From: Methylogaea oryzae | Lineage (GTDB): Bacteria; Pseudomonadota; Gammaproteobacteria; Methylococcales; Methylococcaceae | DNA length: 64,000 bases | Direction: 5' to 3' | Assembly (NCBI RefSeq): GCF_019669985.1 | Contig: NZ_AP019782.1 | Span: 3,342,001-3,406,000, forward strand | Shown: piece by piece, positions 42,080 through 64,000 of the stretch | Layout: each line of letters opens with the position of its first letter | Position numbering within the stretch: position 1 is the first letter of the stretch | Translations under genes and position numbers: made by a program | Notes under the pieces: generated by a model | What the model was told of the DNA's origin: nothing | The model's database searches: none | What the model saw: only the letters and a program-made list of their open reading frames with translations

Positions 42080-42823
42080 TTAGGTCTGTTGCAGGAAACG
42101 GGTGCTAGCAAACCAACGACCCACGAAATGCCACATGAAGTAAATCAAGATGGACATAAAGGCCGAGAAGAATGCAGACACAGGCGCCACGTCCTTACCA
42201 AAGGTTCTCAGAGTACCTTTTTCCACCATGCGGATGTACTCAGGCGTACCGGTACGTACGTAGTTGTAACCCTGGATGTCGGCAATCGACATCAGCATGC
42301 CGTTGTATTCCACCGGCACGTGCAGCGGTGCAATGATCGGCCAGTTGCCCGGGTAGAAAATCAAACCCCAGCCCATGGCGCCAATGATCGCCGTAAACAG
42401 GTAGCTGCCGCTCATGCACAGCACTACGTCCAACAGAATCGCGCCAGGCGTCAGAATTGCCGGGAACACGAAGTTTACCGGGAAGTAGGTCCAACCCCAG
42501 AAGTTGAAGTAGCGGTTGATCCACTCACCCAACACCAGAGCCAGTACGCAAACCGTCGCGCCCCAGGGCAGACGGAAGTTTTCCCACAACCAAACCTGAA
42601 CAGCAGCCGGGAACGTGACCAGCACGATCGGGGTTACCGTTACCCACAGACGACGGTCTTTCCAGTCAGCCCAGAAGTCCCAGTCACCCATGGTCAACAT
42701 GGCGTGAATGTGATAGGAACCTACCACTACGAAGAAAACGATGAACAATATCAAATAGTCAATCGTTCTCGAAACCTGCACCGCTTCGGCATGCGACCGA
42801 ACTGCAGATTGAAGTGTGCTCAT
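42080..42823 (-). CDS. pmoA: Particulate methane monooxygenase subunit A, copy 1
   Basis: A 247-residue membrane subunit of Pmo, the length usual for type I methanotrophs. Recognisable stretches are LTMGDWDFWADWKDRR, WINRYFNFWGWTYFPVN and GPMGWG-like IGAMGWGLIFYPGNWP, all characteristic of PmoA and distinct from ammonia monooxygenase AmoA. It is separated from pmoC by 30 bp and from pmoB by 154 bp. The protein is the same as that of copy 2. Confidence 0.98.
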   Translation of the reverse strand: MSTLQSAVRSHAEAVQVSRTIDYLILFIVFFVVVGSYHIHAMLTMGDWDFWADWKDRRLWVTVTPIVLVTFPAAVQVWLWENFRLPWGATVCVLALVLGEWINRYFNFWGWTYFPVNFVFPAILTPGAILLDVVLCMSGSYLFTAIIGAMGWGLIFYPGNWPIIAPLHVPVEYNGMLMSIADIQGYNYVRTGTPEYIRMVEKGTLRTFGKDVAPVSAFFSAFMSILIYFMWHFVGRWFASTRFLQQT

Positions 42824-45283: not shown

Positions 45284-46027
45284 TTAGGTCTGTTGCAGGA
45301 AACGGGTGCTAGCAAACCAACGACCCACGAAATGCCACATGAAGTAAATCAAGATGGACATAAAGGCCGAGAAGAATGCAGACACAGGCGCCACGTCCTT
45401 ACCAAAGGTTCTCAGAGTACCTTTTTCCACCATGCGGATGTACTCAGGCGTACCGGTACGTACGTAGTTGTAACCCTGGATGTCGGCAATCGACATCAGC
45501 ATGCCGTTGTATTCCACCGGCACGTGCAGCGGTGCAATGATCGGCCAGTTGCCCGGGTAGAAAATCAAACCCCAGCCCATGGCGCCAATGATCGCCGTAA
45601 ACAGGTAGCTGCCGCTCATGCACAGCACTACGTCCAACAGAATCGCGCCAGGCGTCAGAATTGCCGGGAACACGAAGTTTACCGGGAAGTAGGTCCAACC
45701 CCAGAAGTTGAAGTAGCGGTTGATCCACTCACCCAACACCAGAGCCAGTACGCAAACCGTCGCGCCCCAGGGCAGACGGAAGTTTTCCCACAACCAAACC
45801 TGAACAGCAGCCGGGAACGTGACCAGCACGATCGGGGTTACCGTTACCCACAGACGACGGTCTTTCCAGTCAGCCCAGAAGTCCCAGTCACCCATGGTCA
45901 ACATGGCGTGAATGTGATAGGAACCTACCACTACGAAGAAAACGATGAACAATATCAAATAGTCAATCGTTCTCGAAACCTGCACCGCTTCGGCATGCGA
46001 CCGAACTGCAGATTGAAGTGTGCTCAT
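45284..46027 (-). CDS. pmoA: Particulate methane monooxygenase subunit A, copy 2
   Basis: A 247-residue membrane subunit with the same translation as copy 1. It differs from copy 1 only in context: the gap to pmoC is 189 bp instead of 30 and contains a perfect palindrome. Upstream AGGTAACTC is shared with copy 1, so translation initiation should be alike. Confidence 0.98.
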   Translation of the reverse strand: MSTLQSAVRSHAEAVQVSRTIDYLILFIVFFVVVGSYHIHAMLTMGDWDFWADWKDRRLWVTVTPIVLVTFPAAVQVWLWENFRLPWGATVCVLALVLGEWINRYFNFWGWTYFPVNFVFPAILTPGAILLDVVLCMSGSYLFTAIIGAMGWGLIFYPGNWPIIAPLHVPVEYNGMLMSIADIQGYNYVRTGTPEYIRMVEKGTLRTFGKDVAPVSAFFSAFMSILIYFMWHFVGRWFASTRFLQQT

Positions 46028-54896: not shown

Positions 54897-56702
54897 ATGC
54901 AACCGGCACACCACACCGAAGACATCGCCCGCCTGATCTGGGACAGCAAATACCGTTACCGCACCGGCGACGATGTCCACGATCCGACTCCCGCCGACAC
55001 CTGGCGACGGGTGGCGCGCGCCGTCGCCGCGGCGGAACCGGCCGAACGGCCGGCGTGGGAGCAACGCTACTTCGACATGCTGGAGCAAGGCCGTTTCCTC
55101 CCGGGCGGCCGCATCCTGGCGGGCGCCGGCACCGGCCGCCAGGTGACGCTGTTCAACTGCTTCGCCATGGGGCTCGTCGAAGACTCCCTGGAAGGCATCC
55201 TCGACGCCCTCCGGGAAGGCGCGCTGACCATGCGGGAAGGCGGCGGGATCGGCTACGACTTCTCCACCCTGCGCCCGGCCGGCAGCCCCGCCCGGCGCGC
55301 GGGCGGCATCGCATCCGGGCCGGTGTCCTTCATGGAGCTCTGGGACAGCCTGTGCGCCACCCTGCTGTCCACCGGCTCCCGCCGCGGCGCCATGATGGCG
55401 ACCCTGCGCATCGACCACCCGGACATCGAAACCTTCATCGGCGCCAAACGCCAAGCCGGCAAGCTGCGCAACTTCAACCTGTCGGTACTGGTGAGCGACG
55501 CCTTCATGGCGGCGCTGGAAAGGGACGACGACTGGCCCCTGCTGTTTCCGGCCCTTCGCGACGAGGCCGGCGAGACGCTGCCGCGCGATTGGCCCGGCCA
55601 AGCCGCCCCCGTCCCCTGCCGCGTCCATCGCCGCGTGCCGGCCCGGACGCTGTGGCAACGCCTGATGCGGGCCACCTACGACACGGCCGAACCCGGCGTA
55701 CTGTTCATCGACCGCATCAACCGCGACAACAACCTCCGCTACCGGGAAACCATCCACACCACCAACCCCTGCGGCGAAATCCCCCTGCCGCCTTATGGCG
55801 CCTGCGACCTCGGCTCCATCAACCTGACCGCCTTCGTACGGGAGCCCTACACCCCGGACGCGCGCTGGGACCGGGACGGCATCGCCGCCACCGCCGCCCT
55901 GGCCGTGCGCCTGCTGGACGGCGTGGTGGACATTTCCCATTACCCGCTGGAACGGCAACGCCGCCAATCGCTGAACTGCCGCCGGCTGGGACTGGGCATC
56001 ACCGGCCTGGCCGACGCCTTGGTGATGCTGGGACTGCCTTACGGCGAGGAGGCCGCGCGCCAAGCCGCGGCGCAGGCCATGGAAACCATCAAGCTGGCGG
56101 CTTACAGAACCTCCATCGAACTGGCAGGGGAAAAAGGCTCGTTTCCGGCGCTGGAACGGGAGCCGTACCTGGCATCGCCTTTCGTCCGATCGCTGCCGGA
56201 TTCGCTGCGTCAAGCCATCGCCGCGCAGGGCATCCGCAACAGCCACCTGCTGGCCATCGCCCCCACCGGATCCATCAGCCTGCTGGCCGGCAACGTCTCC
56301 AACGGCCTGGAACCGGTTTTCGCCACGCGCTACCGGCGCCGCCTCCTCACCGCCACCGGCTGCCGGGATTACCCGCTGACGCCCTACAGCCTGCGGCTCT
56401 GGCAAAGCCTAGGCCGCACCGGCTCGCCGCCGGCGCTGGTCACCGCCGACGACATCGCTCCACCGGAGCATATGGCCATGCAGGCCGCCCTGCAGCGGCA
56501 CGTCGACAACGCCATTTCCAAAACCATCAACGTGCCGGCGGAGTACCCCTACGCGGACTTCGAGGACTTGTACCGGCAGGCCTACCGGCTGGGATTGAAA
56601 GGCTGCACCACTTATCGCCCCAACGCCCTGCGGGGCGCGATACTCAGCGCGGACGGCGACGCCACGGCGGGGTGCTGCGGACTGGAGCGGGAAGGCGATT
56701 GA
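54897..56702 (+). CDS. nrdJ: Adenosylcobalamin-dependent (class II) ribonucleotide reductase
   Basis: A 601-residue single-chain ribonucleotide reductase that uses vitamin B12 coenzyme instead of a di-iron beta subunit. Motifs are FNCFAMGLVEDSL (one cysteine of the reducing pair), TTNPCGEIPLPPYG (thiyl-radical cysteine and catalytic Asn/Glu), LGLGITGLADALV and APTGSISLLAGN. The C-terminus ends in a CC pair (TAGCCGLEREGD), the likely thioredoxin-coupled shuttle. A class I system (nrdB, nrdA) lies right beside it, so the organism can make deoxynucleotides with or without oxygen. No cobalamin riboswitch fits in the short upstream gap. Confidence 0.93.
   Translation: MQPAHHTEDIARLIWDSKYRYRTGDDVHDPTPADTWRRVARAVAAAEPAERPAWEQRYFDMLEQGRFLPGGRILAGAGTGRQVTLFNCFAMGLVEDSLEGILDALREGALTMREGGGIGYDFSTLRPAGSPARRAGGIASGPVSFMELWDSLCATLLSTGSRRGAMMATLRIDHPDIETFIGAKRQAGKLRNFNLSVLVSDAFMAALERDDDWPLLFPALRDEAGETLPRDWPGQAAPVPCRVHRRVPARTLWQRLMRATYDTAEPGVLFIDRINRDNNLRYRETIHTTNPCGEIPLPPYGACDLGSINLTAFVREPYTPDARWDRDGIAATAALAVRLLDGVVDISHYPLERQRRQSLNCRRLGLGITGLADALVMLGLPYGEEAARQAAAQAMETIKLAAYRTSIELAGEKGSFPALEREPYLASPFVRSLPDSLRQAIAAQGIRNSHLLAIAPTGSISLLAGNVSNGLEPVFATRYRRRLLTATGCRDYPLTPYSLRLWQSLGRTGSPPALVTADDIAPPEHMAMQAALQRHVDNAISKTINVPAEYPYADFEDLYRQAYRLGLKGCTTYRPNALRGAILSADGDATAGCCGLEREGD

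Positions 56703-57550: not shown

Positions 57551-57551
<1 letters not shown>
56730..57551 (-). CDS. Sel1-repeat protein with basic proline-rich tail
   Basis: A 273-residue exported protein. The signal region is MLWPAGLLLAWLALAGPGGA, followed by three full Sel1-like repeats (for example AQYNLGVMYSRGDGGGQDLA and AQYSLGLMYAEGHGVAANLS) and a partial fourth. From about residue 190 the tail is rich in Ala, Pro and Lys (KPPPKQAAKPKIPLPKPPA). The ATG at 57551 overlaps the nrdB stop (ATGA); ATG 57536 is an alternative start with an equally good signal. Sel1 proteins scaffold protein interactions. Its link to nrdB may be transcriptional only. Confidence 0.8.
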
Positions 57552-58783
<1,232 letters not shown>

Positions 58784-58852: not shown

Positions 58853-59143
58853 TCAACTGGCCAAATCCCAGGGCCAAAATTCGTTCTTGATGCGGCTGCT
58901 GCGCCATTGCAGAGCCTGCAAGTTGCTCAATTCGTCGCCGCCGCCCCGTGCCGACGGCACGATGCGGTCGATTTCCCAACCGAACGGCGAGTTGGCGTTG
59001 CCATGGTCGCCGAAGCGGATCGTATTGCCGTGGCAATCCTTACGATATTCCTTGGGGTCGCGCCCCGCCACTACGGTGGCGCGATTCCAAACCGCCAGAA
59101 CGGTTTGCGGACTGTATGTTTGCGCCGGTTTGCCGGTCTGCAT
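58853..59143 (-). CDS. HNH endonuclease domain protein
   Basis: A 96-residue single-domain protein. The pattern GWEIDRIVPSARGGGDELSN followed by LQALQWRSSRIK is the HNH beta-beta-alpha metal motif, with Arg where many members have His (EIDHI), so activity may be altered. The ATG at 59143 is preceded by GAGGAGG, a strong ribosome site that settles the start. It sits between nrdB and rubredoxin on the same strand. Small HNH proteins of this type are often annotated beside nrd genes and have no established role. Confidence 0.75.
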   Translation of the reverse strand: MQTGKPAQTYSPQTVLAVWNRATVVAGRDPKEYRKDCHGNTIRFGDHGNANSPFGWEIDRIVPSARGGGDELSNLQALQWRSSRIKNEFWPWDLAS

Positions 59144-59933: not shown

Positions 59934-61724
59934 TTACCCCAACCCGCGCCCTCCTTTTTTCTCGCAGTCTCCAGGAGCTGATAGTAGCAACTCCAACTCA
60001 TCCTTATAAGGCAAGGTCATTTCATATAGTTGGTGAAAACCGCGTCCCACTGCCCCACGAAACTGAATTAGCTTTGGAGCGGTCTCTCCAACATCCAAAA
60101 CATGTGTATTCGCAATACCAGGGTATGGATCAATATAAATAATTTCCGCAATACCGAGCTGATATGCCTTTTTTGAACACAGCTCACAAGGACTTGCTGT
60201 TGTATATAATCGACCGCCCCGAATACTCTGTCCGCCATATTTTGCCAACTGCAAGAATGCATTTTCTTCCGCATGAATGGAGCGAGTATGAACCTGATTT
60301 TCCTCTTTGTTTATTGAGTTCTTTACATCTTTAAAGCAATAAGACAAATTCCTTCCACCCAATGCTTCGCAACCCAACACCCCCTTATAGCCTCGCCCTA
60401 ACGCCACCCGAAATTGCTCATTAGTACGCTCATAGGAGCTATAGACTTTCGCATCAAAATCAAATAATGCACCTTCAACACTTCGAAAAACACAAGGCAC
60501 CTGACCTTTAGGCACATCATTCCATCCGATGGCCTTTACTGAATTCTCCGTATCTGTAATAACAGCACCTACCTGACGGGAGATACAGCCTGAACTTCGT
60601 TTTACGCTATACGCAAATTCCATAGTCCTTTCCATGGAGGTTGGCGACACAAGCCCTGGATGATGCATTAACGCAAAATACCACGCCAACTGCGCCGACA
60701 AAATATTATTGTTCCCAATTTCTCTACGCGGATTATACATATGTATATCCGACATCTCGATACACTTCTTCACATTGGGAGAAATAAAGTGCCCCGCAGG
60801 ATCATCGTCTTTCCCTGACTCTTTTCTATCAATAACCGCAAGCTGGTCAACATTAAACTTATGAACCTGCTGAAGGTACTCCTTCCTATCATCATCAGGC
60901 GCATTAACAGAAACCAGATAAAAGGCCGCATACCTTTCTTTAAAAAACCTGGCCTCGTAGGGATTCTTTATTGCATCAATAACAACGTAGGCGTTATCCC
61001 TAGTCCTCCGAAAAACCTTAATTATGCGATTAATAGTCTCTGGCAAATGAAAAAGCTGGATCGTATCAAATACACTTTCCCTATAATTAATATCAACCTT
61101 ACCAAGCTTTCTAATTGAGCTCCCTGCAGCCTGATAAACCGCAACATACAGCCCTTTGTCTAGCTCTTGAAGCTGACGCTTAAAATTCTTCGTGAACTTT
61201 CTTATTCGTCGTAAAAACCGCACAAAGGCAGCATCATCTGCCTTATCAAGATCAACAGAGGCGGTGTGATCAAAAAGCAAGTCACCAAAACGACGCAGCT
61301 CTTTTTGCACAATAGCATTAGAGAAAGCAGTGCCCCTGATTGCGCTCTCAATCGAAGCCTTCGGCGCCTTTATACCCTCACCCTTAGCACTATACACAAA
61401 CTCAACCAAATCCTTCTGAGACAACCGCAACAAATAAGCCGATATTACATCGCTAACTTTTATCGAGAAAAAATGCTCCCAATTATTTTCTGCATAGTTT
61501 TTCAGGATACCGTACCTATTCGCGTCAAGCCCTTTAAAAAAGGGCGTCCCATCCTTATCAACCAACTTCTCAAACTCAGGAAACACAGGGCTTTTCTTCT
61601 CTAAGATATCAGAAGCAGTTGTGCACCCAGAACCTGTTCTCCCTGTCAGACCAATGAGAACAAAACGGCTACGCTCATCGAAGAGTTTCGATAGAGCCGT
61701 TGAGTTAGTCGCACTTGGAACCAT
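59934..61724 (-). CDS. AvcD-like antiphage deoxycytidylate deaminase (P-loop plus deaminase)
   Basis: A 596-residue protein. The N-terminus (residues 20-40, VLIGLTGRTGSGCTTASDIL) is P-loop-kinase-like, but the lysine of a normal Walker A is replaced by Cys34. The C-terminal zinc deaminase has His484 and catalytic Glu486 in HAEENAFLQL and Cys513/Cys516 in SPCELC, all intact. This two-domain layout is that of the dCTP/dCMP deaminases AvcD and related enzymes, which deplete deoxycytidine nucleotides during phage infection. The gene is visibly A+T-rich compared with its neighbours, and its last residues (GGRGLG) come from G+C-rich flank. AAGGAG lies 10 bases before ATG 61724. It is bracketed by inverted repeats. 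Confidence 0.85.
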   Translation of the reverse strand: MVPSATNSTALSKLFDERSRFVLIGLTGRTGSGCTTASDILEKKSPVFPEFEKLVDKDGTPFFKGLDANRYGILKNYAENNWEHFFSIKVSDVISAYLLRLSQKDLVEFVYSAKGEGIKAPKASIESAIRGTAFSNAIVQKELRRFGDLLFDHTASVDLDKADDAAFVRFLRRIRKFTKNFKRQLQELDKGLYVAVYQAAGSSIRKLGKVDINYRESVFDTIQLFHLPETINRIIKVFRRTRDNAYVVIDAIKNPYEARFFKERYAAFYLVSVNAPDDDRKEYLQQVHKFNVDQLAVIDRKESGKDDDPAGHFISPNVKKCIEMSDIHMYNPRREIGNNNILSAQLAWYFALMHHPGLVSPTSMERTMEFAYSVKRSSGCISRQVGAVITDTENSVKAIGWNDVPKGQVPCVFRSVEGALFDFDAKVYSSYERTNEQFRVALGRGYKGVLGCEALGGRNLSYCFKDVKNSINKEENQVHTRSIHAEENAFLQLAKYGGQSIRGGRLYTTASPCELCSKKAYQLGIAEIIYIDPYPGIANTHVLDVGETAPKLIQFRGAVGRGFHQLYEMTLPYKDELELLLSAPGDCEKKGGRGLG

Positions 61725-61769
61725 CAGATTGCAACTCCTTGTTATCCTTTAACTAAAAGCCCCGTCTGC

Positions 61770-62317: not shown

Positions 62318-64000
62318 TTACTGGCACGCTTCGCATTCCGGATCCAGGATCGAGCAAACCTTCACCGACTCCATATCCTCGGCGATGGGTCCCGCCATCT
62401 TCACGGCGTTGAGCTTGCCGTCCGCCAGGGTGCTCTTTTCCACGTGGGTGGCGCCCATGGAGCGCAGGTAGTAGGTGGTCTTCAAGCCGCGCACCCAGGC
62501 CAGCTTGTACAAAGCGTCCAGCTTCTTGCCGTTGGGTTCCGACATGTACAGGTTCAAGGACTGCGCCTGGTCCAGCCATTTCTGCCGGCGCGAGGCGGCT
62601 TCCACCAGCCAGCGGGCGTCCAGCTCGAAAGCGGTGGCGTACAGCGCTTTCAGGTCGGCGGGGATGCGTTCGATGGGCAGCACGCTGCCGTCGTAGTACT
62701 TGAGGTCGTTGATCATCACCGAGTCCCACAGGCCGCGGCTCTTCAGGTCGCGCACCAGGTAGGGGTTGACCACGGTGAATTCGCCCGACAGGTTCGATTT
62801 GACGAACAGGTTCTGGTACGTCGGTTCGATGGACTGGGACACGCCGCAGATGTTGGAGATGGTGGCCGTGGGGGCGATCGCCATGGTGTTGCTGTTGCGC
62901 ATGCCGACGCTCATCACCCGCTGGCGCAGGCTGTCCCAATCCAGGGTGGCCGAGCCGTCCACCTGCAGATAGCCGCCGCGGTTCTGTTCCAGCAGGGCCA
63001 TGGAGTCTAGCGGCAATATCCCCTTGCTCCACAGCGAGCCGTCGAAGCTGGAATAGCGGCCGCGCTCTTCGGCCAGGTCGGTGCTGGCCTTGATGGCGTA
63101 GTAGCTGACCTGCTCCATGCTCTGGTCGGCGAAAGCCACTGCCGCATCGGAGGTGTAGGGAATGCGCAGCTTATAAAGCGCGTCCTGGAAGCCCATGATG
63201 CCCAGCCCCACCGGGCGGTGGCGCAGGTTGGAGCGGCGCGCCTGGGGCACGCTGTAGTAGTTGATGTCGATGACGTTGTCCAGCATGCGCATGGCGGTGG
63301 AGACGGTTTTCTCCAGCTTTTGCGCGTCCAGCACGCCGTCGTCGCTGACGTGGTTGACCAAGTTCACCGAACCCAGGTTGCACACGGCGATTTCGCTTTC
63401 GTTGGTGTGCAGGGTGATTTCCGTGCACAGGTTGGAGCTGTGCACCGTGCCGGCGTGCTGGTTGGTGTAGCGCACGTTGCACGGGTCCTTGAAGGCGATC
63501 CAGGGGTGGCCGGTTTCGAACAGCATGGACAGCATCTTGCGCCACAGCTGGCTGGCGGGCATGCGCTTGAACAGGGTCAGTTCGCCCCGGTCCACCTTGG
63601 CTTCGTATTCCTGGTAGCGCGCGTCGAAAGCGGCGCCGGTGAGGTCGTGCAAATCCGGCACGTCGTTGGGGGAGAACAGCGTCCACTGGCCTTCCTCGGC
63701 GACGCGCTTCATGAACAGGTCCGGCACCCAGTTGGCGGTGTTCATGTCGTGGGTGCGGCGGCGGTCGTCGCCGGTGTTCTTGCGCAGGTCGAGGAACTCC
63801 TCGATGTCGATGTGCCAGCTTTCCAAATAGGCGCACACCGCGCCCTTGCGCTTGCCGCCCTGGTTCACCGCCACGGCGGTGTCGTTGGCCACTTTCAGGA
63901 ACGGCACCACGCCCTGGCTCTTGCCGTTGGTGCCTTTGATGTGGGCGCCCATGCCGCGCACCGGGGTCCAGTCGTTACCCAGGCCGCCGGCGTATTTGGA
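62318..64000 (-). CDS. nrdA: Class I ribonucleotide reductase alpha subunit, partial
   Basis: The frame stays open to the window edge ([13 protein letters not shown] before position 63961), so the start lies beyond 64000 and 560 residues of the C-terminal part are visible. It contains the thiyl-radical cysteine in [24 protein letters not shown], and the C-terminal CxxC pair in DPECEACQ that is re-reduced by thioredoxin or glutaredoxin. It is the catalytic partner of nrdB (57551-58783) and converts ribonucleotides to deoxyribonucleotides aerobically. The deaminase cassette lies between them. Confidence 0.96.

Follow-up and report, generated by a model that had tools for sequence, protein, structure and literature searches.

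Introduction

In the AvcID system of Vibrio and Escherichia coli, an enzyme of the AvcD type is held by an RNA, AvcI (PMC10511110). With AvcID and with the anti-phage dCTP deaminases gathered in the NCBIfam model NF041025 and the PADLOC family dCTPase, the protein described here shares a P-loop-fold domain joined to a C-terminal zinc deaminase, the HAE...PCxxC motifs and a sporadic, mobile distribution. It differs from AvcD by an N-terminal domain whose helical insert is longer, by a GRTGSGC[TS] motif and by its sequence, which is 25% identical to that of the ETEC homologue and scores slightly below the NF041025 cut-off. Moreover, in contrast to AvcID, the short spacer between arm and start codon at its locus leaves no room for an AvcI gene. 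Regarding genomic location, defence genes that vary between genomes are known from two chromosomal sites of Pseudomonas aeruginosa, cDHS1 and cDHS2, which lie at the merR/DUF4011 and ssrA loci and hold up to >100 kb (PMC10250203). The site 3' of nrdB considered below is comparable in this respect, but takes mainly one or two genes.

The window, that is the whole stretch of DNA analyzed, covers 64,000 nucleotides of Methylogaea oryzae. The methanotrophic nature of the host, proposed in the initial annotation, agrees with the presence of two pmoA genes of equal full score in the same window (~42089-42802 and ~45293-46006, on one strand and 3.2 kb apart). We consider it probable that the gene of interest, hereafter avcD, encodes an imported anti-phage deoxycytidine-nucleotide deaminase, of predicted activity, belonging to a sister clade of AvcD and inserted as a single gene between inverted repeats at a recurrent site 3' of nrdA.

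A two-domain deaminase related to AvcD

The 596-residue open reading frame was confirmed, on the minus strand (Table 1), and exists as one copy in the M. oryzae genome. Over nearly its whole length the protein matches the PADLOC dCTPase family (472 bits, E 9e-142), so that its matches are not confined to ordinary dCMP deaminases or to ComE-type proteins lacking the N-terminal domain. With NF041025, an equivalog model for anti-phage dCTP deaminases, it obtains 398.8 bits, 1.2 short of the cut-off of 400; the same model gives 470 for the AvcD homologue of an ETEC plasmid, 433 (432.6) for the Pantoea homologue and 400.3 for the one of Geminocystis. Pfam finds the deaminase domain alone (PF00383, residues 364-530, E 4e-16).

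Table 1. Features of the avcD locus in the window
Feature	Position	Strand	Basis
nrdB (RNR beta)	57551..58783	minus	Pfam/NCBIfam
96-aa ORF, HNH-like by eye, no family match	58853..59143	minus	
Rubredoxin gene, 57 aa	59248..59421	minus	sequence
Structured inverted arm, nrdB side; inner end 86 nt past avcD stop codon	59591..59847	plus	
avcD-like gene, predicted anti-phage deaminase, 596 aa, 43% GC	59934..61724	minus	ORF call, PADLOC, NCBIfam
dCMP/dCTP deaminase domain, residues ~360-570	60015..60647	minus	Pfam + fold
PCELC zinc motif, residues 512-516	60177..60191	minus	
HAE zinc/catalytic motif, residues 484-486	60267..60275	minus	
P-loop-kinase-fold domain, residues ~21-354, beginning at motif GLTGRTGSGCTT		minus	predicted fold
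P-loop-like motif GLTGRTGSGCTT, residues 25-36; Cys in place of the Walker Lys	61617..61652	minus	
AAGGAG ribosome-binding site, within the 35 nt that separate arm and ATG	61735..61740	minus	sequence
Structured inverted arm, nrdA side; inner end (CGGGG) 35 nt before avcD start codon	61760..62088	minus	
nrdA (RNR alpha), C-terminal portion, truncated at the end of the window	62318..64000	minus	Pfam/NCBIfam

An AlphaFold model built with a 33-row alignment (pLDDT 84.3, pTM 0.86) predicts an N-terminal P-loop-kinase fold and a C-terminal dCMP-deaminase fold. Residues 21-354 of the model match the adenylate-kinase-related protein 3lw7 (Z 15.8, rmsd 2.0), residues 360-555 the dCMP deaminase of S-TIM5 (4p9e, Z 16.8) and residues 363-555 the dCMP/dCTP deaminase of PBCV-1 (7fh4, Z 15.5). 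The P-loop-like region and the HAE and PCxxC motifs announced by the initial annotation could all be located. In the deaminase domain the zinc ligands of both motifs are intact; in the P-loop-like region the Walker lysine is absent, position 34 being a cysteine. Indeed, G25 and T27-C34 (TGRTGSGC) are invariant among the 33 aligned clade members, and the Walker lysine is therefore a cysteine in all of them.

The clade of the nearest proteins, with 38-60% identity among the aligned rows, extends over Pseudomonadota, Cyanobacteriota, Bacteroidota and Bacillota, with 252 relatives in genome contigs and 24 in viral contigs. Clade-1 homologues come from a Pantoea agglomerans plasmid, from Pseudomonas, from Hyella and from prophage contigs; they share the motifs of the M. 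oryzae protein, and the closest are 57-60% identical to it. Some are encoded on plasmids or in prophage-like contigs: the closest plasmid homologue, from P. agglomerans (57% identity), is annotated in its record as "anti-phage dCTP deaminase" and its gene adjoins an integrase gene. On a Geminocystis plasmid (L117:3350-6872), a dGTP triphosphohydrolase (dGTPase) gene adjoins the anti-phage dCTP deaminase gene. Family models, fold and the defence or mobile context of the homologues thus support the proposal of an AvcD-like anti-phage deaminase. By homology, the reading of this protein as a defence protein related to anti-phage dCTP/dCMP deaminases is well supported, and its clade is taken to be sister to AvcD. 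A known defence family would gain a methanotroph member.

A foreign gene between structured inverted repeats

As stated in the initial annotation, avcD lies between nrdB and nrdA. All three genes are on the minus strand, and the rubredoxin gene and the 96-aa ORF also intervene, between avcD and nrdB. Near nrdB, on the plus strand, the window holds a second ribonucleotide reductase (RNR) large chain of 601 aa (54897-56702). The avcD gene is a horizontally acquired import, since its GC content is 43% in surroundings of 62% (the value of the window) and it is found in only 1 of 38 genomes of the family, the 37 others having none. Its third codon positions have 41% GC, against 90% in nrdB.

The gene is enclosed exactly by two inverted, strongly structured repeats of ~250-330 nt, hereafter called arms. 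This arrangement distinguishes M. oryzae from the clade-1 homologues, some of which sit 3' of nrdB: among 80 other genome loci checked, an arm occurs within 4 kb at three and arms flank avcD at none, and the arms were hence rejected as a general border of avcD. Around the M. oryzae gene, promoter-like sites do not exceed chance, and terminator-like stems number nine for 4.0 expected, mostly inside the arms; transcription of avcD may therefore start within an arm or result from read-through. Membership of avcD in an nrdAB operon was rejected for M. oryzae, as arms, other genes and terminator-like stems intervene and there is no promoter excess.

A probable landing site 3' of RNR genes

The proximity of avcD to RNR genes, described as unusual by the initial annotation, is real and recurrent. 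Among the best 80 avcD loci, nrdB adjoins avcD in eight, all from Pseudomonas, which represent 8 of the 17 Pseudomonas loci examined. In two of them (L189 and L240), avcD directly follows nrdA and nrdB on the same strand; in the six others, which belong to one clade (L217, L238, L218, L221, L223 and L225), avcD and nrdB lie tail to tail. According to the tree, avcD was placed by RNR genes at least four times independently, once in the methanotroph and at least three times in Pseudomonas (L189, L240 and the one clade).

Such recurrence might reflect a functional coupling, whereby avcD would be expressed together with RNR, or would respond to what RNR makes, so as to tune the defence or limit self-harm. 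The initial annotation had likewise suggested a possible tie to deoxynucleotide supply. Along this line, phages escape the defence systems Clover and DRT9 through mutations of their own RNR (PMC12265719, PMC12483538), and L189 and L240 have the same-strand arrangement. Against it, the six tail-to-tail genes run opposite to nrdB, and in M. oryzae a terminator-rich arm separates nrdA from avcD. Moreover, the same site receives other genes: in another genus of the family (G006), the corresponding position 3' of nrdA holds an unrelated low-GC ATPase gene, again flanked by the arm repeat in inverted orientation. Across the methanotroph family, 5 of 14 nrdA-nrdB gaps contain a low-GC stretch and nine contain none. 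In a genome of the genus of M. oryzae (G016), a further low-GC stretch, with a short ORF that is DUF4062-like by eye, is present 3' of nrdA and reaches the contig end (L080:1-1417); it is perhaps another insert at this site.

Hotspot and function were weighed by examining the nrdB 3' side across one pseudomonad genus, represented by 40 genomes (L311-L350). The first suitable ORF 3' of nrdB is low in GC in 31 of them and, in favour of coupling, 28 of these 31 ORFs are co-directional with nrdB; nearly all belong to different families. Half of the inserts scanned (14 of 28) match PADLOC families at E<=1e-10, namely DRT8, AbiU (twice), an AriA/NsnB-like ATPase, dGTPase, a retron XII RT-TIR, a ThsA-like SIR2, MzaB (partial), NsnA, an Aga-like SIR2, PDC-S59 (twice), HEC-01A and PDC-S31, and the unmatched ones are therefore good candidates for new systems. 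Two nrdB inserts of higher GC, initially taken as controls, proved to be a DRT RT-nitrilase and an E1-E2/JAB gene. In other families, none of eight nrdB neighbours of normal GC has a PADLOC match, and a small control of eight non-hotspot genes in the pseudomonad genus gave two weak Mrr-like hits. Clade-1 avcD is itself absent from the nrdB hotspot of the surveyed genus. In two further gammaproteobacterial families (L357 and L366), nrdB is followed on its 3' side by a low-GC gene that matches AbiLi or PDC-S31; as these are the only two low-GC defence inserts among 37 families, the hotspot was rejected as a class-wide feature.

The nrdB 3' side is thus a defence hotspot in the surveyed pseudomonad genus and an occasional one elsewhere. 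Different imported genes occupy one RNR 3' site across genomes, both on the nrdA side in methanotrophs and on the nrdB side in pseudomonads. Because unrelated genes (AbiU, SIR2, DRT, retron and ATPases among them) occupy the same position, a tie to dNTP supply most likely explains the place of avcD less well than insertion at a hotspot does, and the coupling explanation appears unlikely. At the M. oryzae site the hotspot reading rests on few genomes, since 5 of 14 gaps in the family are low in GC and the feature is not class-wide. As the adjacency is real and recurrent, and as several defence systems are responsive to the products of RNR (PMC12265719, PMC12483538), this place may nevertheless bring a selective or functional benefit. 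The 3' side of RNR genes is worth following as a site of exchange of single defence genes; our literature search, in which few subscription journals were covered, found no description of an nrdB hotspot.

Near the RNR inserts, transposase genes judged RAYT-like (Y1) by eye are found repeatedly, in 12 of the 40 genomes. Such genes were seen at L240:7179-7742 and L315:3807-4499, in one protein cluster of the nrdB survey and in the nrdA-nrdB gap of G004 (L065).

Proposed restraint and release of the deaminase

We propose that, at rest, the C-terminal zinc deaminase would be restrained by the N-terminal P-loop-fold domain, which is probably a ligand sensor because the Walker lysine is missing. Phage infection would release the deaminase which, by homology, would convert dCTP/dCMP into dUTP/dUMP, and the loss of deoxycytidine nucleotides would starve phage DNA synthesis. 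The gene would stand beside those of RNR through a hotspot taking many single defence genes, with no dedicated circuit.

A variant of this explanation differs in how the enzyme is restrained: avcD would form a type III toxin-antitoxin pair with an adjacent RNA antitoxin gene, as in Vibrio and E. coli, where AvcI restrains AvcD homologues. We regard it as rather improbable, since the spacer between arm and ATG has only 35 nt and contains no Rfam family, and since upstream regions are conserved between close homologues only and are unlike those of ETEC and Pantoea. It is possible that the nrdA-side arm itself is the RNA restraining the avcD product. With no obvious RNA antitoxin and a conserved lysine-less P-loop, this large sister clade of AvcD makes the trigger a testable question. 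Finally, that the protein would be a housekeeping dCMP deaminase serving dTTP synthesis and not defence is very improbable: its C-terminal domain is similar to dCMP deaminases, but the whole-length match goes to the anti-phage models, ComEB reaching 40.5 of 219 bits over residues 480-534 only, the protein has an additional 350-residue domain, and its distribution is sporadic, low-GC and mobile.

A widespread pair of structured inverted repeats

The setting of avcD directs attention to a structured inverted-repeat pair that surrounds imported genes well beyond this locus. Covariance-model matches to the arm number 15 in the M. oryzae genome, and the repeat is found in 18 of 38 family genomes and, with a model of the outer 76 nt, in 45 of 185 gammaproteobacterial genomes. 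The consensus structure of 20 aligned arms comprises 72 pairs, 39 of which show compensatory changes. Once two pseudoknots of the outer part are included, 95.6% of the cells tested are paired and covariation is 0.377, against 0.130 after shuffling; slid controls drop to 42-53% paired, a comparison that is somewhat favourable because the structure was derived from the same sequences.

Inverted pairs with their inner ends facing are widespread in Gammaproteobacteria (loci L120-L133 and L155-L172 among them). In the family, 18 convergent pairs lie less than 6 kb apart (19 were counted, one being a hit inside another copy), and the two divergent neighbours, 2.1 and 2.6 kb apart, are members of separate pairs; class-wide, arm neighbours within 3 kb are convergent in 20 cases, divergent in none and tandem in five, these numbers being copies and not independent events, with the pairs of G000 entering both counts. 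Many pairs enclose just 80-280 nt. In the 14 filled pairs examined, the core is always lower in GC than both flanks, and the cargo is mostly one or two ORFs of unrelated kinds. An enrichment of defence genes between arms was not supported: for five cargo proteins, PADLOC matches were generic or partial at best, Pfam being checked as well. The idea that arms carry the genes inserted at the pseudomonad nrdB hotspot was also rejected: in the cases examined there, they follow the insert, some as empty pairs.

Tentatively, the arms could mark the borders of a gene-cassette platform, so far undescribed, in Gammaproteobacteria which, together with the RNR 3' sites, would offer single defence genes a route to fixed chromosomal places; we hold this to be less likely than not. 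Paired arms of ~250-330 nt, each with a fold comprising two pseudoknots and a branched stem preserved through compensatory changes, would face each other by their inner ends and enclose one or two imported low-GC genes starting beside the conserved inner end. Inspection by eye of the outer ends of the arms showed no target-site duplication. Searches of the literature for such an element (inverted-repeat cassettes, RAYT/REP cassettes), covering few subscription journals, returned no account of it, and the letters of the arm sequence returned unrelated matches only. Rfam gave no match at threshold for the arm copies in the window. The inner half of some arms from other genomes resembles, on the reverse strand, TwoAYGGAY (RF01731), with a best score of 40.6 for a gathering score of 43; this sub-threshold likeness covers two hairpins, whereas the arm adds further stems, two pseudoknots and inverted pairing. 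Like integron gene cassettes, the filled pairs carry single low-GC genes of unrelated functions bounded by structured sites, but the arm sites are inverted and isolated, whereas those of integrons are direct and arrayed.
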